Below, in pieces: positions 5,066 through 60,097 of a stretch of DNA of 64,000 bases (position 1 is its first letter; each line of letters starts with the position of its first letter). A program made the position numbers and the translations under genes. Location: positions 310,001-374,000 of the forward strand of contig NZ_BNJJ01000004.1 in NCBI RefSeq assembly GCF_016587435.1, given 5' to 3'. This DNA is from Dictyobacter formicarum (GTDB lineage: Bacteria; Chloroflexota; Ktedonobacteria; Ktedonobacterales; Ktedonobacteraceae). The notes below the pieces were generated by a model. That model had not been told where the DNA came from, did not search any database, and was given only the letters and a program-made list of their open reading frames with translations.

Positions 5066-5079
5066 TTTATTTTCATATC

Positions 5080-5125
5080 ACAGCAAGAGAGGCAGCGGTC
5101 ACGATACCGCTGCCTCTCTTGCTGT
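5080..5125. terminator. Strong 20-bp hairpin after otsA
   Basis: A perfect 20-bp stem (5080-5099 with 5106-5125) and a 6-nt loop lie between the convergent otsA and minus-strand hydrolase genes. It probably terminates both directions. Confidence 0.75.
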
Positions 5126-5185
5126 GGTGCACTCGAATATTCAGAGATATGATATTTAGAGCATAGCGTCCGGGGTTGCTGGTTA

Positions 5186-8365: not shown

Positions 8366-8474
8366 AGCCCTTTTATACGTTGGTGCCGCATTCGCGCTTT
8401 GCGCGAATGCGGCACCAACGTATAAAAGGGCTCGGGTGCGCATGCGCCCGCACAGGGGCGCTTTACTTCCCATA
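8366..8474. repeat. Palindromic element, 32-bp perfect stem plus GC-rich arm
   Basis: Positions 8366-8397 and 8401-8432 are perfect reverse complements (32 bp) around a 3-nt TTT loop. A GC-rich arm follows, ending AGGGGCGCTTTACTTCCCAT (8454-8473). The reverse complement of this arm (21 identical bases with one more) opens the element at 25436. Part of a family listed at 8494, 25674, 28941, 34467 and 47506. Confidence 0.85.
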
Positions 8475-8493: not shown

Positions 8494-8548
8494 TTCAATG
8501 GCTGGTACATGCAGGGCGCTGTGCACCCTGCATGTACCAGCCATTGAA
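8494..8548. repeat. Palindromic element, 23-bp stem
   Basis: 8494-8516 pairs perfectly with 8526-8548, loop CGCTGTGCA. The stem carries GGCTGGTACATGCAGGG. The next 60 bases again contain AGGGGCGCT, as after the neighbouring palindrome, so two units of the family lie in tandem in the 8237-8845 gap. Frames crossing this gap are repeat-derived. Confidence 0.8.
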
Positions 8549-8845: not shown

Positions 8846-9880
8846 ATGCGTGCAGCTATTATTGATAGACCAGGAACGATACGCGTCGGTGAGAGGCCTG
8901 ATCCTACTCCAGGCGTGGATGATCTGATTATTCGTGTGGGTGCCTGTGGGATCTGTGGCACTGATCTGCATATTTCTGAGGGAGAATTCCCTCCCACCCC
9001 CTATCCAATTGTGCCTGGGCATGAGTTCGCTGGCGAAGTAGTGATGGTAGGTAGTAATATCCAGCAAGGAAAAGACCCGGTGACGGCAAAATTCAGGCCG
9101 GGAATGCGTGTGGCGGTTGATCCATCACTGTTTTGCGGAAAATGTGATTTTTGTCGCGTTGGCCATGGTAATCTTTGCCAGAACTGGGCGGCCATCGGTG
9201 ATACTGTAGACGGCGCTTTTGCTGAATACGTGAAAGTGCCAGCGGCCAACGCTTACCTGTTGCCTGATAGCATCTCATATCGTGAAGCGGCCTTAATTGA
9301 GCCTATTTCCTGTGCGGTACATGGCATTCATCGGCTCAATCCTCGCCTTGGTGATAAGTGCTTGATCGTTGGAGCTGGAACGATGGGACTGCTCCTGTTG
9401 CAACTCTTATTGCGCGGTGGGGCCTCGCAGGTGGTAGTTAACGATACCAATACGCAGCGCTTAAAGCGGGCTGAGCAACTGGGCGCTTATCGCACCGGAA
9501 CAGATATCGCCGCGCTGCTGAAAGATGAGCCACTGGGCTTTGACTGCGTTATTGATGCTACGGGCGTCTCTCAAGCGATGGAGGCCGCGTTTAACGCTGT
9601 GCGGCGGGGCGGCAAATTTATGGTCTTTGGCGTTGCTCCTCAGGAGGCGCGTATCTCGCTGTCGCCTTTCCGTATCTACAACGATGAAATCACTGTTCTG
9701 GGTTCAATGGCCGTCCTCTTCTCCTATGGTGCCGCGGTAGATCTGATGAGTAGCGGAGCCATCGATACCAAAGCCATGCTCACCCTGGCGTTGCCTCTTG
9801 AAGACTTCCCGAGTGCGCTTGAAAAGGTCAGGCGCGGCGAAGGCGTCAAAACTCAGATTCTCCCGAATGGAGAAATTTGA
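8846..9880 (+). CDS. Zinc-dependent alcohol/polyol dehydrogenase
   Basis: A 344-residue medium-chain dehydrogenase that oxidises an alcohol or polyol with NAD(P)+. GICGTDLH supplies the catalytic zinc cysteine, and GHEFAGEV the conserved His-Glu loop. CGKCDFC plus the later NLC gives the four structural zinc cysteines, and GAGTMGL is the dinucleotide-binding turn. Overall pattern resembles sorbitol/threonine-dehydrogenase-like members; the exact substrate is unknown. AAGGAG lies nine bases before the ATG. Followed by a 218-base space without visible signals, so probably monocistronic. Confidence 0.9.
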   Translation: MRAAIIDRPGTIRVGERPDPTPGVDDLIIRVGACGICGTDLHISEGEFPPTPYPIVPGHEFAGEVVMVGSNIQQGKDPVTAKFRPGMRVAVDPSLFCGKCDFCRVGHGNLCQNWAAIGDTVDGAFAEYVKVPAANAYLLPDSISYREAALIEPISCAVHGIHRLNPRLGDKCLIVGAGTMGLLLLQLLLRGGASQVVVNDTNTQRLKRAEQLGAYRTGTDIAALLKDEPLGFDCVIDATGVSQAMEAAFNAVRRGGKFMVFGVAPQEARISLSPFRIYNDEITVLGSMAVLFSYGAAVDLMSSGAIDTKAMLTLALPLEDFPSALEKVRRGEGVKTQILPNGEI

Positions 9881-10098
9881 GGCAGATTCGTTTAAAATAA
9901 GTCACATTTCGAAGCCATTGTAGCTCTTTTCAGCGTATCAAATATATACCCTGCAAGATTTCATCAGCGAGATATTCTCCGGCTCAGTGGTTTGTTGGAT
10001 TTGTAAATGAGAATATGTCTTTTTGAAGCAAGCGGTGTAACCAGAAATCATTTTATTGTGTTTTCTCCTAGAGAGGAGCAAGAACACACTGGAGTGTT

Positions 10099-10689
10099 AT
10101 GGATGTGAGCGGTGAGAAGAGCCTGGCCCAGTTTGCCAACGAGGTTGATGCCTACTATGAGCGCCTGGTAGCGCTTTACTGGCAGCAATTGAAGGCATTT
10201 GTAATGGCACGCATTGGAAATCCTCAGGATGCCGAAGATATCGTCCAGGAAGTGTTTATTCGGGCCTATGTGGCGCTGGAGCGGTACTCGGTTCGGCAGC
10301 GGCAGGAACTCAAGGTGCGTGCCTGGCTCTATAAGATTACCTGGAACCTTTATTATAATTTTGTTAGTCGTTCACCTGAGCAGCAAGGTTTATCTGTCGC
10401 CCTGGAAGAGAGACAAGAGCACGAATGGTTTGAGGCCGACGATGAGAATGGCGTCAATCCAGAGGAAGTTTTCGAACAGCTGGAACGCCGACAGGAGCTA
10501 GAGGCGCTGGTGGCGTCCTTACCTCGACATTACCAGGCTGTGGTAAGTTTATATTATTTTGAAGAGCTTAGCCTTCAGGAAGTGGCTGAAGTGCTTAACC
10601 AGCCATTGGGCACAGTAAAAGTGTATGTACGCCGTGGTATTCAGCAACTGAGGAAGATATCGCAGATGCAGGTGAATATGGTAGGGTAA
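10099..10689 (+). CDS. ECF-type RNA polymerase sigma factor
   Basis: A 196-residue sigma-70-family factor of the extracytoplasmic-function type. Region 2 is visible as DAEDIVQEVFIRAYVALERY near residues 43-62, and region 4 as LPRHYQAVVSLYYFEELSL with the helix-turn-helix LQEVAEVLNQPLGTVKVYVR toward the C-terminus. An acidic linker of about 30 residues joins them. Its stop lies six bases before the HEAT/WD40 membrane protein gene, so the two are almost certainly co-transcribed and functionally paired. Start is the ATG at 10099. Confidence 0.92.
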   Translation: MDVSGEKSLAQFANEVDAYYERLVALYWQQLKAFVMARIGNPQDAEDIVQEVFIRAYVALERYSVRQRQELKVRAWLYKITWNLYYNFVSRSPEQQGLSVALEERQEHEWFEADDENGVNPEEVFEQLERRQELEALVASLPRHYQAVVSLYYFEELSLQEVAEVLNQPLGTVKVYVRRGIQQLRKISQMQVNMVG

Positions 10690-10695
10690 TTTTCG

Positions 10696-12654
10696 ATGGC
10701 GAAGAATGAAAGCGATCACCAGGAATTTCCAGAGCGCGAAAATGCCTCTGGACAGTGGCTACATGGTAAGAGTGATGATGCGCCTGAGTTGTCGCTGCCA
10801 CCTTTAACTTATCTTGGCCTGGGTAATAACGCTGCAACTCATGCGCGCTCAGATGAACAACTACTGGCGGATTTGCAGCATCCCGATTGGGCCGTGCGTG
10901 TCAGCGCCCTGAAGCAGTTGGGGCGCATGGAAGCGCGAGTTCCCCTGGATGTTTTCCTGGCCGCTTTACAGGATGAACATAAAGCCGTGCGAGCCGCTGC
11001 CGCTCGTATACTGGGTACATTGAAAGAAGATATTCCCCTGGCCCCTCTACTGGGCGCTCTTTATGATTCAGATTGGCACGTGCGCTCTTGTGTTGTGCAG
11101 GCGCTTGGCCAGCATATCCAACGAGTGCCATTAGATGCGCTGGTGTATGCCCTGGGGGACCAGGACGAAACGGTCCGCTCCGCCGCGGTGACCGCGATCG
11201 GCAAACTGGGAGAACGCGCTCCACTGGATGCATTGAGCGCCTGTTTGCATGATCGCTCCTGGATGGTGCGCGAGGCCACTGTGCTGGCTTTAGGAGATTT
11301 GGGAGAGCGCGTTCCACGCTCACTCCTGCTGCGTGCGCTGGAGGATAGCGATACCAACGTACAGCAAGCGGCTGAAGAAGTATTAGGCGGCCTGGCAACT
11401 GTTGCCCTCCAACATTGGCAGAGCCAACAACAAAGCTCAGCGGACACTTTTCTGCCATCCCTTGAGGCGAGCATCTTCATGGCTCATGAAGAGCAAACGC
11501 CAGCCATAGCACAGTCACCGCCGCCTTCCGATGATGTACCATTAGCTTCAGATCATCTTCTCCCATTACATTTTTTGTCCCGACTGACAAGCATTTCCAG
11601 ATTGATCCGACCTGTTGGTATTAGCATGTTGATGGGTATTTTGTTGATCTGTGCCATTGCTATCCTGCCGCCACCTTTGATGGCACCCGCAGAGAGCAAT
11701 CACATCATCGAGTACGCCCATTATCATGATAATGGCGGAAAAAGTGCGGGTATCAGGTGGCTGGACAAAGTACAGTTTGCCTGGGCGGATGGGCAGGGAA
11801 CTGTGCAGATGGCGAATGCTATTGCGCATCAGTCAATCACTATGTATAACACCTCGGCCAGGATTCTGGATTTAGCGCGCGTTAACCATTCGTTTTATAC
11901 CGCTGAACTGCAGCAAGGAACCATAAAGGTCCGTAAGGATAACCAGCAGACTATTTTTGCTATTCCTACTAACTCGCAGATTCCCGTCGCCTCTTTCTCT
12001 CCTGATGGCCACTACGTCGCGTTGGCCCTGAATGATATGAGCGTCGTCACTACTATCTCAATCTGGGACACCATCACAGGACATTATTTGACCAGCTATA
12101 CTGCTCAACAGGGTACCATTACCGCCATTGCCTGGCCACCTGAAGGGGATGTGCTGGCATCGGTTAGCGCTTCGGTAGACCGCGATGGTCAGCAAGCCTG
12201 GAAGATTGAGATGTGGGATGCGCGCACTGGCCATTCTACCCTGGCTCAGGAGCCTATACCGTACTTAAGCCTCCCCCGAACTGTAATTGGACTGTCGTGG
12301 TCGCCAGATGGGACGCGCCTGGCCTATACGTTGGCTGACGGCGTGATTCATGTTCATGATCGGGTAACCTTAATTGATGGTGTCTATAACACGAGAAGTA
12401 CCACGGAAACCAATTGGAATGGAGCTATTGCCTGGTCGCCAGACGGCAAATATCTGGCCTCAACAAACAAAAACGGCGAAGTCCAGGTCTGGAACGTTTC
12501 AGGCGACAATAACGATGGTCAACTGGTCTGTACGTATATGCGCCACAAAACGCCTGTGGACGCGATTGCCTGGGTTCCCAATGCCAGTATAGATCGTATC
12601 CTTTCTACCGATATCAGCGGCAACCTCTTTGTCTGGGATGTAAAGGAACACTGA
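10696..12654 (+). CDS. HEAT-repeat / transmembrane / WD40-like protein, probable partner of the ECF sigma factor
   Basis: A 652-residue three-part protein. Residues about 50-240 are HEAT-like repeats of 31 residues with recurring VPLD, PLDAL and VR.AA motifs. One hydrophobic segment (near 308-330, VGISMLMGILLICAIAIL) follows. The C-terminal half carries WD40-like blades (IWDTITG, MWDARTG, VQVWNVSG, LFVWDVKEH), presumably outside the membrane. An N-terminal cytoplasmic helical repeat plus an outer beta-propeller is a plausible signal-transmitting anti-sigma design, but no zinc anti-sigma motif is present. The partnership with the sigma gene is inferred from the 6-bp spacing. Confidence 0.8.
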   Translation: MAKNESDHQEFPERENASGQWLHGKSDDAPELSLPPLTYLGLGNNAATHARSDEQLLADLQHPDWAVRVSALKQLGRMEARVPLDVFLAALQDEHKAVRAAAARILGTLKEDIPLAPLLGALYDSDWHVRSCVVQALGQHIQRVPLDALVYALGDQDETVRSAAVTAIGKLGERAPLDALSACLHDRSWMVREATVLALGDLGERVPRSLLLRALEDSDTNVQQAAEEVLGGLATVALQHWQSQQQSSADTFLPSLEASIFMAHEEQTPAIAQSPPPSDDVPLASDHLLPLHFLSRLTSISRLIRPVGISMLMGILLICAIAILPPPLMAPAESNHIIEYAHYHDNGGKSAGIRWLDKVQFAWADGQGTVQMANAIAHQSITMYNTSARILDLARVNHSFYTAELQQGTIKVRKDNQQTIFAIPTNSQIPVASFSPDGHYVALALNDMSVVTTISIWDTITGHYLTSYTAQQGTITAIAWPPEGDVLASVSASVDRDGQQAWKIEMWDARTGHSTLAQEPIPYLSLPRTVIGLSWSPDGTRLAYTLADGVIHVHDRVTLIDGVYNTRSTTETNWNGAIAWSPDGKYLASTNKNGEVQVWNVSGDNNDGQLVCTYMRHKTPVDAIAWVPNASIDRILSTDISGNLFVWDVKEH

Positions 12655-14836: not shown

Positions 14837-16141
14837 ATGCGTCTATCGACTTGCTGGTTATTGGGCCGCCGGGGGCTACTTCTAATCATTATATGCAGTG
14901 CGCTGATAAGCTTATGGCTAACGCAGCCGGGACCTGCGCTGGCCAGGTCCTTGCATGCTAGCTTGCTACGTGCAGAACCGGCTGCAAATAGTGTGCTGGC
15001 CGCTCCACCGTCGCGGCTGCGGCTAACGTTCTCCGAGCCGGTCCAGCCTATTGGACAGACGATTACCATTTTATCTCCCTCAGGCCAGCAACTGGCACAT
15101 GGAGCAGTTACTATCTCCGACGATCAGGTACAGATGAGCATTGACGCCCATACGAAAGGGAGTTATCTGGTTAGCTGGCAGGTACTTTCTCAGGACACCC
15201 AGCCAGTCAGTGGCAAATATGTATTTAGTGTTGGCCGGGTGGCTGGTCCCTGGGCCAACACTGGTGAGCAGGAGCAACTGCCGCTCCAATATACGGCATT
15301 GCAAGTGGGAATACAGTTACTGCACTTTCTGGGTTATGCCCTTGGCTTTGGTACCCTGGCCTTCCTCTGGCTCATTATTTATCCGCTACACTTGCCAACC
15401 ATAGAAGATGTTCAGCAACGGCTTTTACAACTGACAAAATATGGCCTGGGAGCGCTGTTTCTGGCTGAGCCGCTGGCCTTGCTGGTACAGAGTCTCAGCC
15501 TGGCTAGCAGCCAGGGTTTGAGCTTTGAAGTCATTAGCGGTTTGCTGTCCACTCAATTTGGCTGGCTACTCTCTTTGCGCCTGGGAGCTGCTCTTCTTCT
15601 CTGGATAGGAGTGGGTGTCGTACAGCAGGGAGAGAAAAGGGGAGTTCTATTTGCCTGCGCGATAGGTATTGTGCTGTCACTGATTGACAGCCTGGGCAGT
15701 CACGCTACCAGTTCACGCGCACCATGGCTGAGTTTGCTGGCGCATATGATTCATCTTATGGCGATGGGCATGTGGGTTGGCGGGCTGAGCAGTTTATTCG
15801 CTCTCTGGAGACACCAGAAACTGTTTACACAAAGGAGTGTACTTCTCACACGCTTTGGCTATCTGGCAGCCACTGCGGTGGCTGAACTCTTTATTTCAGG
15901 GCTGGTTTTAAGCTGGCTACAGATCGCTCATATTTCTAGCCTCTTCAATACTATTTATGGAAGAGCCTTACTCATAAAGATCATCGTGTTTCTTATAGTT
16001 GTGGTCTCTATAGGTATTTATCAGCGGGTACGAAAGCAATACAGCCTATACTGGTTGATATTAGAAGCAGTTGCCTTAATAGGAATTCTAGTTTTGGCTG
16101 GCTTTCTTTTAACAAGTTCTCCCCCTCTATTGACCCGTTAA
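14837..16141 (+). CDS. CopC-CopD fusion, copper handling protein
   Basis: A 434-residue membrane protein. After a signal-type helix ending ALARSL comes HASLLRAEPAANS, the start of a CopC domain whose mature N-terminal histidine is a typical copper ligand. The CopC sandwich runs to about residue 135 (FSEPVQPIG, GSYLVSWQVLS, VSGKYVFSVG). The remainder has about eight transmembrane helices of the CopD type with HMIHLMAMGMWVGG. Such YcnJ-like fusions are linked to copper uptake or resistance. It follows the MFS gene by about 50 bases but has its own likely start; the tandem peptide genes come next. Confidence 0.87.
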   Translation: MRLSTCWLLGRRGLLLIIICSALISLWLTQPGPALARSLHASLLRAEPAANSVLAAPPSRLRLTFSEPVQPIGQTITILSPSGQQLAHGAVTISDDQVQMSIDAHTKGSYLVSWQVLSQDTQPVSGKYVFSVGRVAGPWANTGEQEQLPLQYTALQVGIQLLHFLGYALGFGTLAFLWLIIYPLHLPTIEDVQQRLLQLTKYGLGALFLAEPLALLVQSLSLASSQGLSFEVISGLLSTQFGWLLSLRLGAALLLWIGVGVVQQGEKRGVLFACAIGIVLSLIDSLGSHATSSRAPWLSLLAHMIHLMAMGMWVGGLSSLFALWRHQKLFTQRSVLLTRFGYLAATAVAELFISGLVLSWLQIAHISSLFNTIYGRALLIKIIVFLIVVVSIGIYQRVRKQYSLYWLILEAVALIGILVLAGFLLTSSPPLLTR

Positions 16142-16293
16142 AAAGGTCATCATCACCTATTGTCTGGCTTTTTGCGCTAGATTTTCCCTTCTGTTAATCA
16201 TAGATTCCTGTATTCCGCTATTAAATGCATAGGCATAAGCAACGATAGATTAACTTATTATTAAATTTGCTGAATTCGTAAATTACAGTAGGC

Positions 16294-16322
16294 TTGACAT
16301 ATAAATCATCATAGGGTACATA
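16294..16322 (+). promoter_or_regulatory. Promoter and structured leader of peptide gene 1
   Basis: TTGACA (16294-16299), 17-bp spacer, TACATA (16317-16322). The following 5' leader folds as GTGGC/GCCAC (16327-16341) and CTGGAA/TTCCAG (16342-16355) before AAAGGA and the ATG. Promoter plus leader are nearly identical to those of gene 2. Confidence 0.7.
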
Positions 16323-16391
16323 TGAAGTGGCACATGGCCACCTGGAATTTTCCAGTGAGACTTCCTGATACTTTATGAAAGGACGAATCTG

Positions 16392-16733
16392 ATGTTTAGC
16401 AGCGACAAAGACCAGCATGTGGATACTCAGTCATATCCAGCATTTTTGGTAAACGTAGATGTTGAGGAATTGTCTGACGCACAGCTGCAGAGCGTCACCG
16501 GTGCCCATGGTGGTTGTGGCTACGGTGGTGGCTACGGCTTCGCCTTCGGTTTCGGTGGTTTAGGCCTCGGTGGCCTCGGCTACGGCTTTGGCGGCGGTTG
16601 TGGCCTTGGCGGTTACGGCTTTGGCTTCGGCGGTTGTGGTGGCCTCGGCTCCGGTTTAGGCTTCGGCTTTGCCAGCTTCAGCTACGGTAGCTACGGCAAC
16701 TTCGGACGAGGCCGTCGCGGACGCCGTCGTTAG
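16392..16733 (+). CDS. Leader-bearing Gly/Cys/aromatic-rich peptide 1
   Basis: A 113-residue protein with a two-part layout. Residues 1-37 are an acidic leader (YPAFLVNVDVEELSD, then LQSVTGAHGG), the LSDxxLxxVxGG pattern seen before double-glycine cleavage sites of ribosomal peptide precursors. The rest is Gly with Phe, Tyr, Leu and three Cys in GGCG contexts, ending in an Arg-rich tail (RGRRGRRR). AAAGGA lies nine bases before the ATG. This copy has GA rather than GG after VT. No maturation enzyme is encoded nearby. It may be a RiPP precursor or an exported structural glycine-rich protein; neither is proven. First of three tandem paralogues. Confidence 0.75.
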   Translation: MFSSDKDQHVDTQSYPAFLVNVDVEELSDAQLQSVTGAHGGCGYGGGYGFAFGFGGLGLGGLGYGFGGGCGLGGYGFGFGGCGGLGSGLGFGFASFSYGSYGNFGRGRRGRRR

Positions 16734-16737
16734 TAGA

Positions 16738-16773
16738 TTGTGTGGTCATGCTATCGGCTGCATGACCACACAT
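16738..16773 (+). terminator. Hairpin after peptide gene 1
   Basis: TGTGTGGTCATG (16739-16750) pairs with CATGACCACACA (16761-16772) directly after the stop. A second weaker hairpin (CTGAGCAGAAA / TTTCTGCTCAG) follows at about 16791-16821. Confidence 0.6.
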
Positions 16774-16973
16774 CCTTTGCCATATTCTGGACTGAGCAGA
16801 AACGTTGAAACTTTCTGCTCAGCTCGGGGTGGTGGCGCAGAAATTAATTGTATGTGCCGCGACATGCTACTTAAAATTTCGCTGTCAGGCTCAACTATTT
16901 ATAAATAGTTTCAGCTATAGCGAGCGTAAATCCGCGGACATGAAAACGAAGTAACGTATACTGGTGAACAACA

Positions 16974-17301
16974 AAGGAAGTTGCATCAGTAAGAATTTTA
17001 TTTTTGGCCGCTTTTTTCCTCTCATTTTTCTTCCCATTTTGAGTCACCAGCAGGCTTCAATGCATCCGTCAGATAGCTTCTCACTTTGGAATCTTCCTTT
17101 ATACGAGTGATAGATTCCATTATATCGCTATTAGATCAACATGCGATGAAATCGATAGATTAACTTATTATTAAATTTAGCGAATACATAAATTATAGCA
17201 GACTTGACATATAAATCACTATAGGGTACATATGAAGTGGCACATGGCCACCTGGAATTTTCCAGTGAGACTTCCTGATACCTTATGAAAGGATGAACGT
17301 G
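16974..17301 (+). repeat. Duplicated intergenic module upstream of peptide genes 2 and 3
   Basis: From AAGGAAGTTGC at 16974 the sequence runs parallel to that from 17949: a TTTTATTTTTGGCCG block, a T/C-rich stretch, GCTATTAGATC, AGATTAA and then the promoter. The repeat unit thus includes about 330 bases before the gene as well as the gene. Otherwise the 16774-17203 and 17745-18181 spaces hold no visible gene. Confidence 0.65.
17204..17232 (+). promoter_or_regulatory. Promoter and structured leader of peptide gene 2
   Basis: TTGACA (17204-17209), 17-bp spacer, TACATA (17227-17232). The leader stem-loops at 17237-17251 and 17252-17265 match those of gene 1 base for base. Confidence 0.7.
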
Positions 17302-17658
17302 ATGTTTGACAGTCAAAAAGATCAGCGCGTAGATGTCCTGAGTGAGCAGGCATATCCAGCATTTTTAGTGAATGTGGATGCTGAGGAATTGTCTGACAAT
17401 GAGTTGCAAGCCGTCACCGGTGGATGGAATGGTGGTGGCTGTGGTGCCTACGGCGGCTATGGCTTTGGTGGCTGTGGTGGCTTTGGTTTCGGCGGCTGTG
17501 GTGGCTTTGGTTTCGGTGGTTGTGGCTTTGGCTATGGCTTCGGCTTTGGCTTTGGCGGCTACGGTGGCTATGGTTTCGGGCGCGGTCGCGGACGCCGTCG
17601 CGGACGCCATCGCCGCCACGGACATCGCCACGGACATCGCCATGGACATCGCCACTAG
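17302..17658 (+). CDS. Leader-bearing Gly/Cys-rich peptide 2 with His/Arg tail
   Basis: About 118 residues. The leader (AYPAFLVNVDAEELSD, NELQAVTGG) ends in a true GG. The core is built of GGCGGFGF and GGYGGYGF units with four Cys, and the end is a GHRHGHRHGHRH-type tail preceded by Arg. The ATG at 17302 is chosen to match gene 1 (AAAGGA eight bases upstream); an in-frame ATG nine bases earlier overlaps that site. The His-rich tail suggests metal or polyanion binding. Antisense and alternative-frame ORFs over this repetitive sequence are artefacts. Same family caveats as peptide 1. Confidence 0.75.
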   Translation: MFDSQKDQRVDVLSEQAYPAFLVNVDAEELSDNELQAVTGGWNGGGCGAYGGYGFGGCGGFGFGGCGGFGFGGCGFGYGFGFGFGGYGGYGFGRGRGRRRGRHRRHGHRHGHRHGHRH

Positions 17659-17708
17659 CAGCTTGTATGCTCATGCATTTTACCGCATGATAATACATAC
17701 GGTTGACC

Positions 17709-17744
17709 TGAGAGCAGCAATTTCTTCCGGGGTTGCTGCTCTCA
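17709..17744 (+). terminator. Hairpin after peptide gene 2
   Basis: TGAGAGCAGCAA (17709-17720) pairs perfectly with TTGCTGCTCTCA (17733-17744). No T-run follows. Confidence 0.55.
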
Positions 17745-18181
17745 TAGTGCTGCTATCCTGTCTAAGTGCGCTTGCTCTCAATCATTTTTGCGTGCCTGGC
17801 GATCCATACCTGTCTGCGCCAAGCAACTACATACATGAATACTCTATGGAAGAGCGCTTCCAGTCACATCCATTCCCTGCGGGCTGTGTTTTTTGCTAAT
17901 GTATTCTGGCAAGCAGAAAAACATATAAGTCTACAATATGGATTTATTAAGGAAGTTGCTTTATCATGAGTTTTATTTTTGGCCGGTTTTTTTGTATCTT
18001 TTTTTTCTCCCCTCAGTCCACCAAAAAATGTCATTTTCAGCCTCCGAACAGCTTTTTTTTGTCGCAAACGCTCATTTTACAAGCAGCAGACTCTGGCATA
18101 TTGCTATTAGATCGATCCATGCTCAACAAAAATAGATTAATATATGATTAAAGTGCATCGAATGAGCTACTTATAGTAGAC

Positions 18182-18210
18182 TTGACATATAAAAAATAAT
18201 CGAGTAAATA
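18182..18210 (+). promoter_or_regulatory. Promoter of peptide gene 3
   Basis: TTGACA (18182-18187), 17-bp spacer, TAAATA (18205-18210). The spacer and leader have diverged more than in copies 1 and 2, but CATGGCC, the TTTTCC block and ACTTCCTGATACTTTA are retained. Confidence 0.7.
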
Positions 18211-18281
18211 TGAAATTGTACATGGCCCCCCGGAGTTTTCCCCGGTAGGACTTCCTGATACTTTACGAAAGGATGAACGTG

Positions 18282-18614
18282 ATGTTTAGCAGCAAAGCAG
18301 ATCAGCGCGTAGATGTCCTGAGTGAGCAGGCATATCCAGCATTTTTGGCCAATGTAGATGCTGAGGAGCTGTCTGACATGGACTTGGAGGCAGTCAATGG
18401 TGGGTGGGGTGGCCGCGGCTTCGGCTTCGGTGGTTGTGGCTGTGGTGGCTACGGCTTTGGCTTCGGTGGTTGTGGTGGTGGCCTGGGCTTTGGCTATGGT
18501 TTCGGCTTCGGTGGCTATGGTTTCGGCTTCGGTCGCTTCCGTCACTTCCGCCATCACTTCCGTCATCGCCGTCATCGCGGTCATCGCGGACGCCATCGCG
18601 GACGCCATCGTTAA
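18282..18614 (+). CDS. Leader-bearing Gly/Cys-rich peptide 3 with Arg/His tail
   Basis: About 110 residues. The leader matches peptide 2 (AYPAFLANVDAEELSD, then LEAVNGG). The core has GGCGCGG and GGCGGG with three Cys among GFGFG and GYGFG repeats; the tail (FRHFRHHFRHRRHRGHRG) is Arg/His-rich. ATG at 18282 by analogy with the paralogues. Arg and His codons in the tail arise from short repeats (CGTCATCGC, GGACGCCATCGC), suggesting slippage-driven variation. Followed by a proper intrinsic terminator, so the trio ends here. Confidence 0.75.
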   Translation: MFSSKADQRVDVLSEQAYPAFLANVDAEELSDMDLEAVNGGWGGRGFGFGGCGCGGYGFGFGGCGGGLGFGYGFGFGGYGFGFGRFRHFRHHFRHRRHRGHRGRHRGRHR

Positions 18615-18622
18615 TTAGTTGA

Positions 18623-18665
18623 GTGGCCATATCCTGACTGTAGGGTATGGCCACATGGTTTTTTT
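18623..18665 (+). terminator. Intrinsic terminator after peptide gene 3
   Basis: GTGGCCATA (18623-18631) pairs with TATGGCCAC (18646-18654), with partial pairing inside; a run of seven T follows at 18659-18665. Confidence 0.75.
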
Positions 18666-18725: not shown

Positions 18726-21029
18726 TTATCGCGCCGCTGCCACTGCGAGTTGCCCCAGGCTCAGCCCTCCATCGTTGGCTGGCACTTTTTTGTTGAGATA
18801 GACAGTGAAGGAGTGCCGTCTCAGCTGATGCATGAGATCCTCTAATAACACTTGATTTTGAAAAACGCCCCCTCCTAACGCTACTTTTTGTAGACCGCTC
18901 TGGTAGCGTACTTCATTACAGGCGGTGACGAGCAGGTGAGCGATCGTGGTGTGAAAGCGGCGCGCGATGGTTGCTGTAGCTATATGCTGCTCAATGTCCC
19001 TGGTGATGGCGCGGATCATAGGGAGTACATTCATTTCACCTGTCGAGGTTGAGATATAGTAAGGGTAACAACATGGCTGGCTTTCTGTACACGTTATGGC
19101 CAGCTGTTCCAGCTCGATGGCGGCCTGCCCTTCGTATTGCACCTGTAGCTGAATGCCCAGTAAGGCGGCCACCGCATCAAAAAGTCTTCCCATGCTAGAG
19201 GTGAGCGGGCAATTCAGGTGGCGCTCGATCATCTGCTCCAACGTTTTCCAGGTCTGGACTGGTAGGTGTCGGTTGAAAGGAATATCTAGCTGCTGAAAAT
19301 CTGGGCCATAGGCCGCTGAGAGATAGGTTGCGGCCATGCGCCAGGGTTGTCGAATGGCCTGCTCACCACCTGGCAATGGTAGATATGCCAGATGGAAGCA
19401 GCGCTCAAAATCACTCAGGTTTGCCTGTAATATTTCGCCCCCCCAGATCGCATTATCAGGACCGTATCCAGAACCGTCGAGAGCAATGCCAATTAGCGTT
19501 TCGGTCAGACCGTGTTCGATCATGACACTGGCGATATGGGCGTGATGGTGCTGTACACCGATCTTTGGTAGATCCAGCTCTAATGCGTAGCGGGTGGCTA
19601 AGTAGTCGGGGTGGAGGTCGTGCACGACTACTTCTGGCTGGATATCAAAGAGTTGCTTAAAATGTGTAATGCCTTCTTTGAAAGAGAGCAGCGTCTCCAG
19701 ATTTTCCAGGTCCCCGATATGGTGGCTGATAAAGGCCTGTTTGTCTTTGGCGAGGCAGAATGTATTTTTGAGGTGGGCGCCGCAGGCCAGGATGGGTCTT
19801 GAGATTGACCACGGGAGCGTCAATGGCTCTGGTACATAGCCGCGCGAGCGGCGTATGAACTGTGGTCCCGCTCGGGTTATTCGTGTTACCGAATCGTCGC
19901 AGCGAATGAAAATGTCGCGGTTATGCGCCAGGATGCCGTCGCTGATCGCTGTCAGGCGAGTGCGGGCATCTTCATCGCGATAAGCGATGGGCTCATCGCT
20001 GATATTGCCACTGGTCATAACCAGTACGATGGGTTTATCTGGTTTGAAGTACTTCTGGCAGGCCGCAAGGAGAAGATAATGGAGCGGCGTATACGGGAGC
20101 ATCACTCCCAGCGTGTGATATCCTGGCGCCACACTGGGAGCGACTTGCTGCCCTTCCCTCTGCTCTAGTAGCACGATTGGACGCCGATAGGATTCCAGCA
20201 GAGCAGTTTCTTCAGCGGTCATGTGGCATAGCTGGCGCGCACTATCTGTGGTTGCCACCATTAAAGCAAAGGGCCGGACTTCCCGCTGTTTACGCTGACG
20301 TAGACGTTGTACCGCCTGCTCATTGAAGGCATCGCAGGCCAGGTGGTAGCCTCCCAGTCCTTTCACTGCCAGTATCTTTCCCTGTGCCAGGAAGGCTGCG
20401 GCCTGATCAATCGCTGTGGCGGAGATGCTCGTTTCCATTCCCATGCCTGGCTGCATCGTCAGATGCACCTGTGGACCACAGCACGCACACGCATCTGGTT
20501 GGGCATGGAAGCGCCGGTCCAATGGATCATGATATTCATGCTGACATTGCGCGCACATCTGGAAGGCACGCATAGTTGTGTTGGCGCGATCATAGGGAAC
20601 GTCCTGAATAATCGTGAAGCGGGGACCACAATTGGTACAGTTGATGAATGGATAGTGATAACGACGATCTTGCGGATCAAATAGTTCGCGTAAGCAATCA
20701 GCACAGATGGCGGTATCGGGCGAGATCAGCGTGTGTTTGGTAGCCTGGCGCTGACTCTCAACGATGACAAAAGAGGCATCGTCATGCGTCGCCATCTGCG
20801 TGACCTGTATCTCATCGATTTGTGCCAGCGGAGGTAGCTCAGAGCGCAGGGCCTGCTGAAACGAGCGCAGAGCTGTGGGTGGTCCCTCAATTTCAATCTG
20901 CACGCCCTGACTATTATTAAGCACAAAGCCGCTCAACTGCCAGCGTTGAGCCAATCCATATACAAAAGGGCGGAACCCCACTCCCTGCACAATTCCCCGC
21001 ACAAGGAGACGCCATCGTTCTCTCTCCAT
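18726..21029 (-). CDS. hypF: Carbamoyltransferase HypF
   Basis: Makes the thiocarbamate that becomes the cyanide ligands of the NiFe site, from carbamoyl phosphate and ATP, acting on HypE. The 767-residue protein shows the usual domain order. The acylphosphatase domain has VRGIVQGVGFRPF near residue 10. Two zinc fingers follow (CADC, NCTNCGP, CAQC, CACCGP), then a YrdC-like domain, and a Kae1-like domain with HHHAH. I choose the ATG at 21029, seven bases after GGGAG; a GTG 21 bases earlier is possible. It stands apart from the hydrogenase operon at 56.5-64 kb, which starts hypA and hypB. Confidence 0.95.
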   Translation of the reverse strand: MERERWRLLVRGIVQGVGFRPFVYGLAQRWQLSGFVLNNSQGVQIEIEGPPTALRSFQQALRSELPPLAQIDEIQVTQMATHDDASFVIVESQRQATKHTLISPDTAICADCLRELFDPQDRRYHYPFINCTNCGPRFTIIQDVPYDRANTTMRAFQMCAQCQHEYHDPLDRRFHAQPDACACCGPQVHLTMQPGMGMETSISATAIDQAAAFLAQGKILAVKGLGGYHLACDAFNEQAVQRLRQRKQREVRPFALMVATTDSARQLCHMTAEETALLESYRRPIVLLEQREGQQVAPSVAPGYHTLGVMLPYTPLHYLLLAACQKYFKPDKPIVLVMTSGNISDEPIAYRDEDARTRLTAISDGILAHNRDIFIRCDDSVTRITRAGPQFIRRSRGYVPEPLTLPWSISRPILACGAHLKNTFCLAKDKQAFISHHIGDLENLETLLSFKEGITHFKQLFDIQPEVVVHDLHPDYLATRYALELDLPKIGVQHHHAHIASVMIEHGLTETLIGIALDGSGYGPDNAIWGGEILQANLSDFERCFHLAYLPLPGGEQAIRQPWRMAATYLSAAYGPDFQQLDIPFNRHLPVQTWKTLEQMIERHLNCPLTSSMGRLFDAVAALLGIQLQVQYEGQAAIELEQLAITCTESQPCCYPYYISTSTGEMNVLPMIRAITRDIEQHIATATIARRFHTTIAHLLVTACNEVRYQSGLQKVALGGGVFQNQVLLEDLMHQLRRHSFTVYLNKKVPANDGGLSLGQLAVAAAR

Positions 21030-21160
21030 CCTCACACTCCCTGTTTTCACATATATAGCCTAGCCCTGTGACTTTTAAATATACCTGCACTCTTTCTTCA
21101 CGTCGCTATGGCATTATTTGTAACTGTTCCGGTAGCTGATGGTATTGGAATTACATAATC

Positions 21161-25673: not shown

Positions 25674-25734
25674 TTTTTTAGTATGTGATGCAGAACAGGT
25701 GCGGAGCACCTGTTCTGCATCACATACTAAAAAA
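25674..25734. repeat. Palindromic element, 29-bp perfect stem
   Basis: 25674-25702 and 25706-25734 are perfect reverse complements around GGA. A6/T6 runs close the stem, so it could also act as a bidirectional terminator between the Lrp and EamA genes. Confidence 0.85.
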
Positions 25735-28940: not shown

Positions 28941-28991
28941 ATTCGGTGGTGCAGACCCGTGCGCACCGCGCACGGGTCTGCACCACCGAAT
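28941..28991. repeat. Palindromic element, 24-bp perfect stem
   Basis: 28941-28964 and 28968-28991 are perfect reverse complements around ACC. A run of A and a GC-rich arm (GCGGACGCCCGTACGGGGGC) follow, as in the other family members. It fills most of the divergent gap between the lysR and MFS genes. Confidence 0.85.
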
Positions 28992-34466: not shown

Positions 34467-34522
34467 TTTCATGGCTGGTGCAGCAGGTGCGCATTAGCGC
34501 ACCTGCTGCACCAGCCATGAAA
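34467..34522. repeat. Palindromic element, 26-bp perfect stem
   Basis: 34467-34492 and 34497-34522 are perfect reverse complements around ATTA. A GC-rich arm with CCATGCACCGTGCATGCGG follows. It separates the second SDR gene from the amidohydrolase gene and may attenuate read-through. Confidence 0.85.
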
Positions 34523-39141: not shown

Positions 39142-39248
39142 CAACTCTCCCACTCGGCTAAGAAAAAGAAAAAAAACTTCCTGAAAGGGAGTCTGCAAGA
39201 GGTAGATTCCCTGCTAAAAATAAATGATAGAGTAGGAGCATATTTATA

Positions 39249-41471
39249 ATGAAATGTGAACGCTGCCAGAAAAACCCCGCTCAGGTCCGTGTTGATCAGA
39301 TGGTGGATGGGCGCCGTGAGTCTCATTTCCTTTGTCAGTCCTGCGTTGATGAGCTGATGAGTGTGATGGGGCAGGCTTCGGGTTTTGATGGCCCCGAAAC
39401 CTCTGGTGCTCCCTTTGGCTTTACTGCTAACAATAATGCAAATTCCTCTGCGTCTGCTGCCCGCACCAATACCGCTACTGCCGAGCGCCAGGGGACCCAG
39501 AGCAAAACCCCTACTTTAGATAAGTATGGTCGCGACCTGACAGGTGAGGCGGCCGAGGGGAAACTCGATCCCGCCGCCGGTCGTGAGCGCGAGCTGCGCC
39601 GCATGATCACCGTCCTGGGACGCCGGCAGAAGAACAACCCGGTCCTGATTGGTGAGCCGGGCGTGGGTAAAACGGCGATCGTTGAGGGGCTGGCCCGCAA
39701 GATTGTCAGCGGCGATGTGCCCGCCAACCTGCGCGATAAACGCGTGGTCTCATTAAATATCGGCGGCATGGTTGCTGGAGCCTCGTTCCGCGGCCAGTTT
39801 GAGCAGCGCATCAAATCCATTCTGGAAGAGCTGCGTAATGCGCCAGAGATCATCGTCTTCATTGACGAGCTGCATACGGTGGTTGGAGCCGGCGCGGCCG
39901 AAGGCTCGGTGGGGGCTGCTGATATGATCAAGCCGGCGCTGGCCCGTGGCGAGCTGCGCTGTATCGGGGCGACGACGCTGGATGAGTACCGCAAGCATAT
40001 CGAGAAGGATGCGGCTCTGGAGCGCCGTTTCCAGCCGGTGAAGGTGGATGAGCCCTCGGTGGAGGAAGCCATCCAGATGCTGCAGCTGCTGCGCCCCAAC
40101 TATGAGGCTCACCACAGCGTCAGCATCACCGATGAGGCTATCGAGGCGGCTGTCAAGCTGTCCGATCGCTACATCAACGATCGCTTCCTGCCGGACAAAG
40201 CCATCGACGTGATGGATGAGGCAGGATCGGCACTGGTGCTGGAGGCCAATGAAAAGGGGCTGGTCAGTCCCTCGGTGCTGGAGAAAGAACTGGCTGAGCT
40301 GCAGAAGCAGAAAGAGGCGGCTGCCGAGGCCGAAGATTATGAGAAGGCCGCTCATCTACGTCAGCAGGAATTATTAACCCTGCAGAAGTTGGAGAAAGCG
40401 CGCTCGGAGTCGGAGGCGACCATGTCCTTACTGGTGACGCCGGAGCAGATCGCGCAGGTGGTTGAGCTGTGGACCGGGGTGCCGGTGACGCAGATGCTGG
40501 AGAGTGAGCGCAAGAACCTGCTGACCCTGGAAGGGGATCTGCGCCAGCGCGTGGTGGGGCAGGATGAAGCGATCAGCGCGGTGGCTCGGTCCATCCGTCG
40601 CTCGCGCGCGGGGCTGAAAGATCCCAAACGCCCGATCGGCTCGTTCCTGTTCCTGGGACCCACCGGTGTCGGGAAAACGGAGCTGGCCAAAGCCCTGTCA
40701 GCCGAACTGTTTGGTGGTGAGGACCACATGATCCGGCTGGATATGTCGGAGTACATGGAGCCCCATACTGTTTCGCGACTGTTCGGGAGCCCTCCGGGCT
40801 ACGTGGGTCATGACGATGGTGGCCAGTTGACCGAGCAGGTTCGTCGTCGTCCCTATAGCGTGATCCTGCTCGACGAGGTCGAGAAGGCACATCCCGAGGT
40901 CTTCAATTCGCTGTTGCAGATCCTGGACGATGGGCGGCTGACCGATGGACAGGGACGCACCGTGGACTTCAAGAACACGGTGGTGATCATGACCAGTAAC
41001 GCGGGCAGTGCGGACCTCAAGCGTGCGGTGAACATGGGCTTCAATACCCGCAAGGGGGAGGAAGCGAAGAGTGCGCAGCACGAGGTGATGCGTTCGAAGG
41101 CCATGGAGGGCTTGAAGCGCGCGTTCCGGCCAGAGTTCATCAACCGCATCGACCAGATCGTGGTCTTCCACACGCTGGGCCGCGAAGAGCTGTACCAGAT
41201 TGTGGACCTGCTGTTGAACCAGGTGCGAGGCCGCTTGCAGGAGCAGCAGATCGAGCTGAGCGTGAGCGACGAGGTGCGTGACTTCCTGCTGGACGTCGGC
41301 TTTGACGAAGAGTATGGTGCGCGTCCGCTGCGCCGGGCGATCCAGAGCTACGTGGATGACGCGCTGGCTGACGCCATCCTGGATGGCACCATCGCCAGTG
41401 GCCAACAGGCCCTGCTGGCCTTGGAAGACGGCAAGATAGCCGTACAGGTGGCCGAAAAGAGAGCGGCATAA
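39249..41471 (+). CDS. clpE: ClpE-type AAA+ chaperone/unfoldase, copy 1
   Basis: A 740-residue HSP100 protein that unfolds proteins, in ClpE relatives for ClpP. The N-terminus is a zinc finger (C3, C6, C29, C32) rather than Clp_N repeats, which marks the ClpE type. Two AAA+ modules follow: Walker A GEPGVGKT at 135-142 and GPTGVGKT at 470-477, Walker B VIFIDE-type and VILLDE. A UVR-like coiled region ([14 protein letters not shown]) lies between. The last segment is the D2 small domain. Three CIRCE sites precede it. From codon about 97 it is nearly identical in DNA to copy 2. Confidence 0.93.
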
Positions 41472-41494
41472 AGCTGTACATTCCCCTGAGCTTC

Positions 41495-41688: not shown

Positions 41689-41913
41689 AAGCGGGAATAA
41701 GCAGGCCCGCTATACCGTTATCATATATGAATGAATAAATATAAAGTGCGGGTGCTAGAAATGGATGTCCTGGTGGTATTCGTTGGTCTCGCCAGACATT
41801 CATTATAACATTGAAGATTCCGTGGAGATCGCGTTTCATTCCAGCTGATGTATTGCTGGTCGAGAAGCGCAGAGCTCCATCGAAACTATATATAGTGAGG
41901 AGCATACTTAATA

Positions 41914-44145
41914 ATGAAGTGTGAACGCTGTCAGAAGAATCCTGCCCAGGTCCGCGTTGAAGCGATGGTCAACGGTAAACGTGAAGCCCACTTCCTCTGC
42001 CAGACCTGTGTAGAAGAGCTTATGGACTCGTTGAATCAGATGGGCGGACTCGGTGATGATTCTGAATACGCCGGTGCTCCCTTTGGTTTTGCCGCAAACA
42101 ATACAAATTTCTTTAATTCTGCCTCTCGTGGCAACGGTGTGAATACTGCGACTGCCGAGAAGTCTGCTAAACAGAGTAAGACACCGACTCTTGATCAATA
42201 TGGTCGCGACCTGACAGGTGAGGCGGCCGAGGGGAAACTCGATCCCGCCGCCGGTCGTGAGCGCGAGCTGCGCCGCATGATCACCATCCTGGGACGCCGG
42301 CAGAAGAACAACCCGGTCCTGATTGGTGAGCCGGGCGTGGGTAAAACGGCGATCGTTGAGGGGCTGGCCCGCAAGATTGTCAGCGGCGATGTGCCCGCCA
42401 ACCTGCGCGATAAACGCGTGGTCTCGTTGAACATTGGTGGCATGATTGCCGGTGCCGCCTTCCGCGGCCAGTTTGAGCAGCGCGTCAAATCCATTCTGGA
42501 AGAGCTGCGTAATGCGCCAGAGATCATCGTCTTCATTGACGAGCTGCATACGGTGGTTGGAGCCGGCGCGGCCGAAGGCTCGGTGGGGGCTGCTGATATG
42601 ATCAAGCCGGCGCTGGCCCGTGGCGAGCTGCGCTGTATCGGGGCGACGACGCTGGATGAGTACCGCAAGCATATCGAGAAGGATGCGGCTCTGGAGCGCC
42701 GTTTCCAGCCGGTGAAGGTGGATGAGCCCTCGGTGGAGGAAGCCATCCAGATGCTGCAGCTGCTGCGCCCCAACTATGAGGCTCACCACAGCGTCAGCAT
42801 CACCGATGAGGCTATCGAGGCGGCTGTCAAGCTGTCCGATCGCTACATCAACGATCGCTTCCTGCCGGACAAAGCCATCGACGTGATGGATGAGGCAGGA
42901 TCGGCACTGGTGCTGGAGGCCAATGAAAAGGGGCTGGTCAGTCCCTCGGTGCTGGAGAAAGAACTGGCTGAGCTGCAGAAGCAGAAAGAGGCGGCTGCCG
43001 AGGCCGAAGATTATGAGAAGGCCGCTCAACTGCGCCAGCAAGAGCTGGTGATGCAACAGAAGTTGGAGAAAGCGCGCTCGGAGTCGGAGGCGACCATGTC
43101 CTTACTGGTGACGCCGGAGCAGATCGCGCAGGTGGTTGAGCTGTGGACCGGGGTGCCGGTGACGCAGATGCTGGAGAGTGAGCGCAAGAACCTGCTGACC
43201 CTGGAAGGGGATCTGCGCCAGCGCGTGGTGGGGCAGGATGAAGCGATCAGCGCGGTGGCTCGGTCCATCCGTCGCTCGCGCGCGGGGCTGAAAGATCCCA
43301 AACGCCCGATCGGCTCGTTCCTGTTCCTGGGACCCACCGGTGTCGGGAAAACGGAGCTGGCCAAAGCCCTGTCAGCCGAACTGTTTGGTGGTGAGGACCA
43401 CATGATCCGGCTGGATATGTCGGAGTACATGGAGCCCCATACTGTTTCGCGACTGTTCGGGAGCCCTCCGGGCTACGTGGGTCATGACGATGGTGGCCAG
43501 TTGACCGAGCAGGTTCGTCGTCGTCCCTACAGCGTGATCCTGCTCGACGAGGTCGAGAAGGCACATCCCGAGGTCTTCAATTCGCTGTTGCAGATCCTGG
43601 ACGATGGGCGGCTGACCGATGGACAGGGACGCACCGTGGACTTCAAGAACACGGTGGTGATCATGACCAGTAACGCGGGCAGTGCGGACCTCAAGCGTGC
43701 GGTGAACATGGGCTTCAATACCCGCAAGGGGGAGGAAGCGAAGAGTGCGCAGCACGAGGTGATGCGTTCGAAGGCCATGGAGGGCTTGAAGCGCGCGTTC
43801 CGGCCAGAGTTCATCAACCGCATCGACCAGATCGTGGTCTTCCACACGCTGGGCCGCGAAGAGCTGTACCAGATTGTGGACCTGCTGTTGAACCAGGTGC
43901 GAGGCCGCTTGCAGGAGCAGCAGATCGAGCTGAGCGTGAGCGACGAGGTGCGTGACTTCCTGCTGGACGTCGGCTTTGACGAAGAGTATGGTGCGCGTCC
44001 GCTGCGCCGGGCGATCCAGAGCTACGTGGATGACGCACTGGCCGACGCCATCCTGGATGGCACCATCACCAGTGGCCAACAGGCCCTGCTGGCCTTGGAA
44101 GACGGCAAGATAGCCGTACAGGTGACCGAAAAGAGAGCGGCATAA
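41914..44145 (+). CDS. clpE: ClpE-type AAA+ chaperone/unfoldase, copy 2
   Basis: A 743-residue paralogue of the preceding gene with the same architecture: N-terminal zinc finger (C3, C6, C29, C32), first AAA+ module, UVR-like coil, second AAA+ module. The N-terminal 93 residues differ clearly (for example [15 protein letters not shown]), while the remainder has only a handful of substitutions. Upstream CIRCE suggests the same HrcA control with a weaker operator. Near identity of the body indicates recent gene conversion rather than recent whole-gene duplication. Confidence 0.93.
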
Positions 44146-44162
44146 CATCGGATATTCCCCTG

Positions 44163-44198
44163 AAACGGACGAGATCATACAAACGATCTCGTCCGTTT
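44163..44198 (+). terminator. Intrinsic terminator after clpE copy 2
   Basis: AAACGGACGAGATC (44163-44176) pairs perfectly with GATCTCGTCCGTTT (44185-44198), then TT. Confidence 0.85.
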
Positions 44199-44421: not shown

Positions 44422-44585
44422 AGGGGCCGTTACAAAATTAATTATGAATGACACCCATATTGTTGATGCACCTTCACAAATGGGTGTTCATGAGGTATAC
44501 TCAATAGACAAAGTTCTATATACACCTATACATAAACACTATTTCATGCACATCGTTTGCTCAATAGAATAAAACCATTTTGCTG

Positions 44586-44680: not shown

Positions 44681-44752
44681 GATCTAATTGCCAGCTGGCG
44701 TTCATGCACAAGCGTTTTTGGGCTGTCCGTGCCAGCTGTAGATAGATGATCG

Positions 44753-57520: not shown

Positions 57521-57569
57521 TAATGTAAGATGCTCCACGCAAGTGCGGGTAGAAGGAGAAAACAGCAAC

Positions 57570-59490: not shown

Positions 59491-59519
59491 GAAAACCCAT
59501 GATCCAGAAAGGTTGTAGC

Positions 59520-60095: not shown

Positions 60096-60097
60096 CG

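Follow-up and report, generated by a model that had tools for sequence, protein, structure and literature searches.

Tandem genes for glycine-aromatic peptides with double-glycine-type leaders in Dictyobacter formicarum, possibly exported in trans as surface material

Peptides with a double-glycine (GG) leader are read by the C39 peptidase domain of ATP-binding cassette (ABC) exporters. A cryo-EM study of PCAT1 reports the leader consensus as L-12, E-8, L-7, G-2 and G-1, with L-7 and L-12 needed for transporter binding (PMC6959990), and another account lists positions -4, -7, -12 and -15 plus a terminal GG, sometimes GA or GS (PMC7018657). A 2014 survey reported a LanT homologue without an associated modification enzyme in Ktedonobacter racemifer, and raised the possibility that orphan LanT proteins act on peptides from other loci (PMC3951391). 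Here we describe three tandem genes of Dictyobacter formicarum and their nine relatives in four other genomes. The trio lies in a 64,000-nt stretch (positions 310,001 to 374,000 of contig NZ_BNJJ01000004.1, assembly GCF_016587435.1), which we call the window. The N-terminus of these proteins is well supported as a double-glycine-type leader, and the explanation we favour, tentatively and in the knowledge that it may well prove wrong, is that they are double-glycine peptides which leave the cell by export in trans and then, probably without modification, serve as a surface material that assembles itself.

The three plus-strand open reading frames (ORFs) encode 113, 118 and 110 amino acids, in which the pattern YPAFLxNVDxEELSDxxLxxVxG is followed by a Gly core interspersed with Phe, Tyr and spaced Cys, and then by a basic tail. 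An earlier note, made from the letters of this DNA alone, had picked out three adjacent paralogues of 110-118 residues with this leader motif, a Gly/Cys core and Arg/His tails. These are real genes, as the relatives described below keep the same layout, and the description of the tails fits copies 2 and 3 but not copy 1, whose tail contains only Arg as its basic residue (GRGRRGRRR). For copies 2 and 3, the longer starts given by the ORF tool overlap the ribosome-binding site, and the ATG 9 bases further on appears to be the better-placed start. The earlier note marked the span 16294-18665, which opens with the TTGACA of promoter 1 and closes with the T run behind gene 3. The genes are as follows.

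16392-16733, plus strand: gene 1, encoding 113 aa, with the leader at 16392-16505, the core starting at 16506 and the Arg tail at 16704-16730.
17302-17658, plus strand: gene 2, encoding 118 aa, with the leader at 17302-17424, the core starting at 17425 and the Arg/His tail at 17578-17655.
18282-18614, plus strand: gene 3, encoding 110 aa, with the leader at 18282-18404, the core starting at 18405 and the Arg/His tail at 18531-18611.

A profile search of 47 Ktedonobacteria genomes identified four carriers (D. aurantiacus, D. vulcani and the genomes G026 and G025), whose nine relatives, together with the window trio, make up an alignment of 12 members. D. aurantiacus has four copies adjoining hypF, on a 2,748,323-bp contig that was listed in 2026 as an extra, chromid-like replicon (PMC13289182). 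D. vulcani has one, between a copCD relative and hypF; G026 has three, between copCD and hypF; and G025 has one, adjoining the same rpoD-like gene, with hypF on a different contig and no copCD in the 20-kb locus. In the D. vulcani copy the reading frame shifts close to the end, so that the annotated frame lacks the tail and a His-rich end lies in another frame; the copCD relative of this species is also split across two frames (locus L002, 8594-9744). In D. aurantiacus, C-terminal remnants of copCD precede the array (L001, 8485-8952; stretches of 63 and 28 residues at 41-54% identity). A leader profile built from the 12 members, run against 400 genomes of the phylum, returned the same four carriers and one weak partial match in G028, which proved to be a different GG-type peptide and was rejected. 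Two loci, in D. aurantiacus and D. vulcani, were found by a scan of 84,980 species genomes that demanded an exact match to one of two short leader peptide patterns, and which distant relatives can escape. In leader-only protein searches, copy 2 gave no match, and one G026 copy gave a single match, the D. vulcani protein KDW_52290. The viral contigs searched held no relative, and three weak matches in a plasmid collection, all inside the repetitive core, were disregarded. Where unsaturated, pairwise dN/dS values (nonsynonymous to synonymous substitution ratios) for the leader codons are 0.04-0.52, mostly 0.1-0.3, and show purifying selection. Because the nine relatives keep both leader and layout, and the leader codons are under purifying selection, the genes are not a product of chance.

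The earlier note had recognized an LSDxELxxVxGG-type leader, and this assignment holds: L-12, L-7, V-4 and G-2, residues at positions that C39 domains read, are present in all 12 members, with G (seven), A (two) or T (three) at position -1. The link between this leader type and exporters was examined with a profile built from a second D. aurantiacus peptide array (L048, described below) and one G028 peptide, none of which has an exporter nearby. It gave 55 matches in 24 of the 47 genomes, or 45 when five profile-building rows and five family rows are set aside. Twenty-seven of the 45, which belong to 20 exporters, have a C39 domain no more than 10 kb away, as compared with 0.53 expected from C39 numbers and genome sizes, while 18 do not; several of the 45 share an exporter, some are orthologous, some of the genomes are fragmented, and several matches are lanthipeptide-type precursors. 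Among 41 candidate precursors near C39 genes, residue -1 is G in 25, A in 10 and T in six, in a search that also permitted S, N, C, D, H and K; the 41 come from 27 loci picked for a nearby C39 gene, with the other motif positions fixed, so that only position -1 is informative. Given the excess of matches near C39 domains and the occurrence of the same letters at -1 as in the family, the leader type is strongly tied to C39 export in Ktedonobacteria.

The cores are dominated by Gly, at 41-58% of residues for 11 members; the value for the annotated D. vulcani frame is 28%. Once the basic tails were removed by a simple rule, 161 of the 184 aromatic and Cys residues in the 11 cores were flanked by Gly on both sides (shuffled cores reach roughly a third to half of this count), and none of the 12 cores has adjacent aromatics outside the tail. 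There are one to six Cys per core. After residue -1, Ser and Thr are absent from nine of the 12 cores (the other three have 4, 3 and 10), and these nine can therefore form no lanthionines, which speaks against the lanthipeptide class mentioned in the earlier note. Two other classes that it named fare no better: for Nif11-like precursors, there is no such Pfam match to the three window proteins at E up to 1, the only hit of any kind being L_biotic_typeA with copy 2 at 12.1 bits (cut-off 21.7), and for microcin-B17-like precursors there is one weak match among the 12 members (E 0.027) and no YcaO gene nearby.

These results bear on the possibility that the members are true precursors of ribosomally synthesized and post-translationally modified peptides (RiPPs), with a leader that recruits an enzyme acting in trans, such as a YcaO protein forming azoles on Cys, or a radical SAM enzyme forming thioethers or cyclophanes on Cys or aromatic residues. 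The layout is certainly RiPP-like, prochlorosins are known precursors served in trans, and apart from the microcin B17 match just given, one member each matches heterocycloanthracin (E 0.0019) and TIGR04149, a radical-SAM-modified RiPP (E 0.023). Carrier genomes also contain LanM-like clusters with Gly-rich cores and ELTDxDL leaders (L064 and L073; LanM assigned by size and context, not by Pfam), and all four have YcaO genes. The scarcity of Ser, Thr and Cys argues the other way, as does the genomic context. YcaO matches of the carriers lie on other contigs or more than 170 kb from the family genes, no GG-type leader was found by regular expression in six carrier YcaO neighbourhoods (two small G025 contigs were left out), and YcaO proteins occur in 19 of the 43 non-carriers as well. 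LanM-like genes, recognized by size and context, are found elsewhere in the D. aurantiacus genome (G001) and in G025, and none was seen near the family. On balance we regard a RiPP identity as unlikely, although modification in trans by some other enzyme is possible.

Within the window itself, Pfam scans of 20 flanking proteins found no YcaO, LanM, radical SAM or C39 ABC protein, and a six-frame motif scan found no C39-like active site. The statement in the earlier note that the window lacks such genes thus stands for the proteins scanned, the remaining ORFs having been judged by eye only. Three CxxxCxxC-type matches were considered as radical SAM candidates and rejected, as they lie in zinc-ribbon, ClpC-type (named by eye) and hydrogenase proteins. 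The earlier note would have counted it against its proposal if no carrier genome held transport or modification genes. We find C39 exporters and YcaO proteins in all four carriers, with six C39 domains in D. aurantiacus, eight in G026, and four each in D. vulcani and G025; since 20 of the 43 non-carriers also have C39 exporters, and the YcaO counts given above are similar in kind, we rejected this co-occurrence as uninformative. With no exporter seen at the locus, export of the family would be in trans. Three carriers share a conserved GG peptide with an MFxFGKKN start near a C39 exporter (L065, 9942-10202; L070, 8981-9238; L074, 6467-6766), accompanied by a visible HlyD-like gene in L065 and L074, and because the MF...KK start resembles the family leader, the exporter of this locus is a candidate for serving the family. 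At a further D. aurantiacus locus (L047, 7005-17584), five ELSDxxLxxVxGG-type precursors are encoded together with a C39 transporter and two proteins of LanM size.

Similar cargo is found elsewhere in the class, in some cases directly beside an exporter. In G024 (L118, 7554-11723), there are two Gly-rich GG peptides with Gly/Trp/Cys cargo, the leader of one ending in VNGT, and after them come a small HlyD-like gene and a C39 ABC exporter; this cassette is flanked on one side by a RecQ-like gene, and on the other by an unnamed gene and a second ABC gene (RecQ, HlyD and the second ABC were named by eye, and the HlyD-like proteins have no Pfam match). In G021 (L120, 204-4187), two His/Tyr/Cys GG peptides stand before a HlyD-like and C39 ABC pair, on a contig of only 5.1 kb. 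No modification enzyme is visible in either exporter cassette. G035 (L119) has several Gly-rich precursors near a C39 gene, beside two proteins without a Pfam match, and the C39 neighbourhoods of D. aurantiacus, D. vulcani, G025 and G026 include Gly-Tyr or Gly-Phe cores, some of them beside LanM-like genes. The peptides of the L048 array and those of G027, G028 and G037 have no exporter within 10 kb. Judged by predicted proteins, then, low-complexity Gly/aromatic/His cargo behind GG leaders occurs in several lineages of the class. The L048 array (G001:C1:5553000-5572999) is a second tandem array of D. aurantiacus, and upstream of one of its genes is the sequence CCTGATACT...GAAAGGA, which resembles the 5' leader RNA of the family. 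It encodes four GG-leader peptides.

9148-9405, 9860-10126, 10963-11166 and 11566-11832 of L048, minus strand: array genes with (GYG)n/(GWG)n or Tyr/Phe/Pro cores.

Leaders and cores of the family appear to have had partly different histories. In a tree of promoter and leader DNA, window copy 1 groups with D. aurantiacus copy 1 (support 0.996) and window copy 3 with D. aurantiacus copies 3 and 4 (0.999). In the core tree, which is weak evidence because the sequences are of low complexity, the three window cores fall in one group (0.945) that also contains D. vulcani and G025, while D. aurantiacus copies 2-4 lie together with a G026 copy, and copy 1 lies apart. Core identity is 0.72 between window copies 1 and 3, and 0.57 between window copy 1 and its D. 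aurantiacus counterpart. The aromatic residue differs in kind: the Gly-aromatic part of each window core has 9-10 Phe and 0-1 Trp, and that of each D. aurantiacus core 9-13 Trp and 0-3 Phe. Leaders and control regions thus seem to track gene descent and cores partly to track species, as would be expected from gene conversion or from species-specific selection on a bulk property.

Aromatics that vary between species while leaders are kept would also suit unmodified antimicrobial GG peptides (bacteriocins), a Gly-rich basic cargo that is exported in trans and kills neighbours. The GG leader and the basic tails of most members fit this reading, eukaryotic Gly/aromatic-rich antimicrobial peptides look similar, and two of the 12 members match NCBIfam bacteriocin_sig, of which one, the gene 2 product, is shown above the cut-off (18.6 bits versus 15.7). 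However, no immunity-like gene is seen with the genes, which have their own promoters and, in the window, 3' hairpins, and which are flanked by copCD, hypF and the rpoD-like gene; three to four co-controlled copies would moreover suggest bulk production rather than a weapon. We therefore consider an antimicrobial role improbable.

The neighbouring genes suggest yet another function, that of buffering metal inside the cell or in its wall, in connection with copper (CopCD) or with nickel (HypF and hydrogenase). In the window the trio is placed, by Pfam, between a CopC/CopD fusion gene and hypF, both of which we take to lie outside the system; the window hypF shares 81% identity with its D. aurantiacus counterpart and 77% with the one in G026.

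14837-16141, plus strand: flanking CopC/CopD fusion gene (Pfam PF04234; PF05425 slightly under cut-off).
18726-21050, minus strand: flanking hypF (Pfam HypF domains).

The His and Cys content of the peptides and the presence of copCD and hypF as flanking genes in the window, G026 and D. vulcani would agree with such a buffer. These neighbours are not constant, which weakens the idea: the G025 gene keeps only its rpoD-like neighbour, and D. aurantiacus, with nothing but remnants of copCD, nevertheless has four family copies. In addition, there is just one His in the core of window copy 1. A metal buffer is in our view very improbable.

Each gene of the window has its own control region, with the following elements (operator-like sites, promoters and 5' leader RNAs of genes 2 and 3 are based on sequence and the 12-member alignment, and the promoter of gene 1 on sequence).

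16247-16265, plus strand: operator-like site of gene 1, AGATTAAcTTATTATTAAA, with direct repeat ATTAA at 11-bp spacing.
16294-16322, plus strand: promoter of gene 1, TTGACA, 17 bp, TACATA.
16324-16391, plus strand: presumed 5' leader RNA of gene 1, including a pair of small hairpins and GAAAGGA (alignment, consensus fold, pair counts).
16739-16772, plus strand: 3' hairpin of gene 1 (-29.3 kcal/mol for the fold of the 70 bases after the stop codon).
17157-17175, plus strand: operator-like site of gene 2.
17204-17232, plus strand: promoter of gene 2, TTGACA, 17 bp, TACATA.
17234-17301, plus strand: presumed 5' leader RNA of gene 2.
18134-18152, plus strand: operator-like site of gene 3.
18182-18210, plus strand: promoter of gene 3, TTGACA, 17 bp, TAAATA.
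18212-18281, plus strand: presumed 5' leader RNA of gene 3, with hairpin stem CTGG/CCAG changed to CCGG/CCGG.
18623-18665, plus strand: terminator-like hairpin and T run of gene 3 (-26.1 kcal/mol for the fold of the 70 bases after the stop codon).

The upstream ATTAA-N6-ATTAA and the TTGACA are conserved in all 12 members, with a 17-bp spacer to the -10 box, from which the start of the 5' leader RNA was inferred. In its spacing, the direct repeat is reminiscent of OmpR/PhoB-type sites. Allowing up to two mismatches, the operator pattern has eight matches in the four carrier genomes, of which seven precede family genes and the eighth is at another place in G025; the family gene of G025 and one of the D. 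aurantiacus copies escape it, and a reversed control gave none. A covariance model of the -10/5' region gave nine matches at E <=0.1 in the 47 genomes, which are exactly the nine family genes (88 candidates were scored per genome after strict filters, and the model was built with the global RNAalifold structure). The long outer helix of that global structure is probably not real, since it includes the -10 box, and only two local hairpins were kept. Both are conserved except that one is lost in D. vulcani, and the GAAAGGA ribosome-binding site is invariant. In these hairpins 95.2% of cells are paired, and one pair is changed on both sides in three sequences, probably by one or two events; 21 of 500 shuffles reach this count of cells changed on both sides. 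Single-sequence folding z-scores are mixed (-2.1 to +1.4), and support for the hairpins is modest. At gathering thresholds, Rfam gives nothing at the family genes, and its sole match in the window is a thiamine pyrophosphate (TPP) riboswitch at 44578-44690 (66.2 bits), which precedes an ABC transporter gene. All three stop codons of the trio are trailed by a hairpin, and with an operator-like site, promoter, 5' leader RNA and 3' hairpin of their own, the genes look like single units under dedicated control.

The window copies are 76-80% identical across the upstream region and peptide leader, and the DNA match fades within the core; by this comparison they are products of a tandem duplication that took in about 150-190 bp of upstream DNA. 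Only one of their 32 Arg codons belongs to the four rare forms, as compared with 31% of 762 in 33 background genes, a pattern seen in highly expressed genes, although the repeats are not independent. Multiple gene copies, a consensus -35 box with optimal spacing and the avoidance of rare codons together suggest that the product is abundant.

Export in trans as surface material would, in our proposal, proceed as follows. Each gene would form a transcription unit by itself, driven by a regulated promoter of its own. An ABC exporter encoded at another locus would bind the acidic leader through its C39 peptidase domain, the leader would be cut after G-G/A/T, and the cargo of 62-85 residues would exit the cell. 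Without modification, it could then self-assemble into a silk-like material on the cell or mycelium surface, where alternating Gly-aromatic strands could pack as sheets, Cys could form disulfide cross-links, and anionic wall polymers or metal ions could be ligands of the Arg/His tail. The export of the family, its cleavage, lack of modification, assembly and location are all inferred. D. halimunensis is described as forming a branched mycelium with putative sporangia (PMC12453558), and mycelial growth of this kind would offer relatives a place for surface material. Of the two options raised in the earlier note, an undescribed peptide class or Gly-rich proteins leaving by a double-glycine exporter, the second fits the sequences better.

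Several observations weigh against this proposal. The family is narrow within the class (four of 47 genomes). The earlier note suggested searching Ktedonobacteria with the leader for members near C39 exporters, and the proximity found for same-class leaders fails for the family itself: none of the nine members in the four carriers has a C39 exporter within 10 kb, the nearest C39 domain is 165-402 kb away for seven, and for two there is none on the contig (one of these contigs, that of G025, is only 102 kb long). Neither the operator nor the 5' leader RNA was found at any exporter gene in the genomes searched. Thr at -1, in three of 12 members, is unusual beside the Gly, Ala and Ser given in the account cited at the outset (PMC7018657), and the six Thr of the exporter-linked candidates come from two clusters, five being G035 paralogues and one from G024. 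Alternation is not clear in the core of the annotated D. vulcani frame (two of eight residues flanked by Gly, P 0.11), and the tail of D. aurantiacus copy 4 has adjacent aromatics three times, the sole case in the 12 members. Low-complexity cores of this sort could also be antimicrobial, and the mature form and location of the cargo are predictions from sequence.

A broader proposal, which we consider doubtful, is that Ktedonobacteria build extracellular silk-like material by the GG route, from a class-wide repertoire of low-complexity Gly/aromatic/His/Cys cargo behind GG leaders. Within it, the present family would form a branch under separate regulation and in several copies, in which the aromatic residue (Phe, Trp or Tyr) depends on the species and the basic tail binds metal or wall. 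If the family is indeed exported as surface material, the secretion route of bacteriocins and signals would also export repetitive structural proteins, there would be a genetically simple bacterial source of silk-like Gly-aromatic polymers, and the surface material of mycelium-forming Chloroflexota would have a testable basis. Whatever the function, RiPP-style leaders have been retained here while cores became low in complexity and poor in modifiable residues, and genome miners would file such a family as orphan RiPPs or overlook it. In the literature searched, with most subscription-journal papers outside it, no paper is devoted to Gly-rich double-glycine peptides in Ktedonobacteria, judging by titles and the openings of abstracts; within that scope the leader logic is already known, and neither this type of cargo nor its distribution over the class nor the dedicated control region is described.

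Other parts of the window have features of their own. A gene that by eye encodes a ClpC-type ATPase is duplicated in tandem, and its 2.27-kb copies (39227-41489 and 41890-44163) are 94% identical. At 56492-62511, about 35 kb from hypF, genes for the two subunits of a NiFe hydrogenase, small and large, come before those for NifU-like, DUF5947 and DUF6084 proteins. Seven near-perfect palindromes of 48-67 bp, 91-96% self-complementary, are located between long genes, and may be either terminators or mobile palindromic elements.

5079-5126, 8366-8432, 8494-8548, 25674-25734, 28941-28991, 34467-34522 and 47506-47558: palindromes.

Among known systems, the family is most readily compared with the GG peptides of C39 PCATs (class II bacteriocins, ComC/BlpC and CtA), with which it shares the -12, -7, -4 and -2 positions and the leader-core layout, and related leaders stand beside C39 exporters in the same class. 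It differs from them in its alternating Gly-aromatic cargo, Arg/His tail, lack of an adjacent exporter, Thr at -1 in some members, and an operator-like site and 5' leader RNA for every gene. Class II lanthipeptides of the mersacidin type have the ELS/TDxxLxxVxGG motif in common with it, and occur in the same genomes beside LanM-like and C39 genes, but the family leader lacks the ARAWKDxxYR part found in those clusters, most cores have no Ser or Thr, and no LanM-like gene was seen nearby. The thiazole/oxazole-modified microcins (TOMMs) microcin B17 and heterocycloanthracin resemble it in their Gly/Cys-rich core, and each is matched by one member, probably the D. vulcani copy; the family has few Cys, in most members almost no Ser or Thr, and no nearby YcaO gene. 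Finally, metazoan silk-like structural proteins, as characterized in PMC4944945, are likewise repetitive, strongly biased and Gly-rich chains, whereas the present proteins are bacterial, about 100 aa long, known from genes alone, and begin with a GG-type leader in place of a Sec signal.

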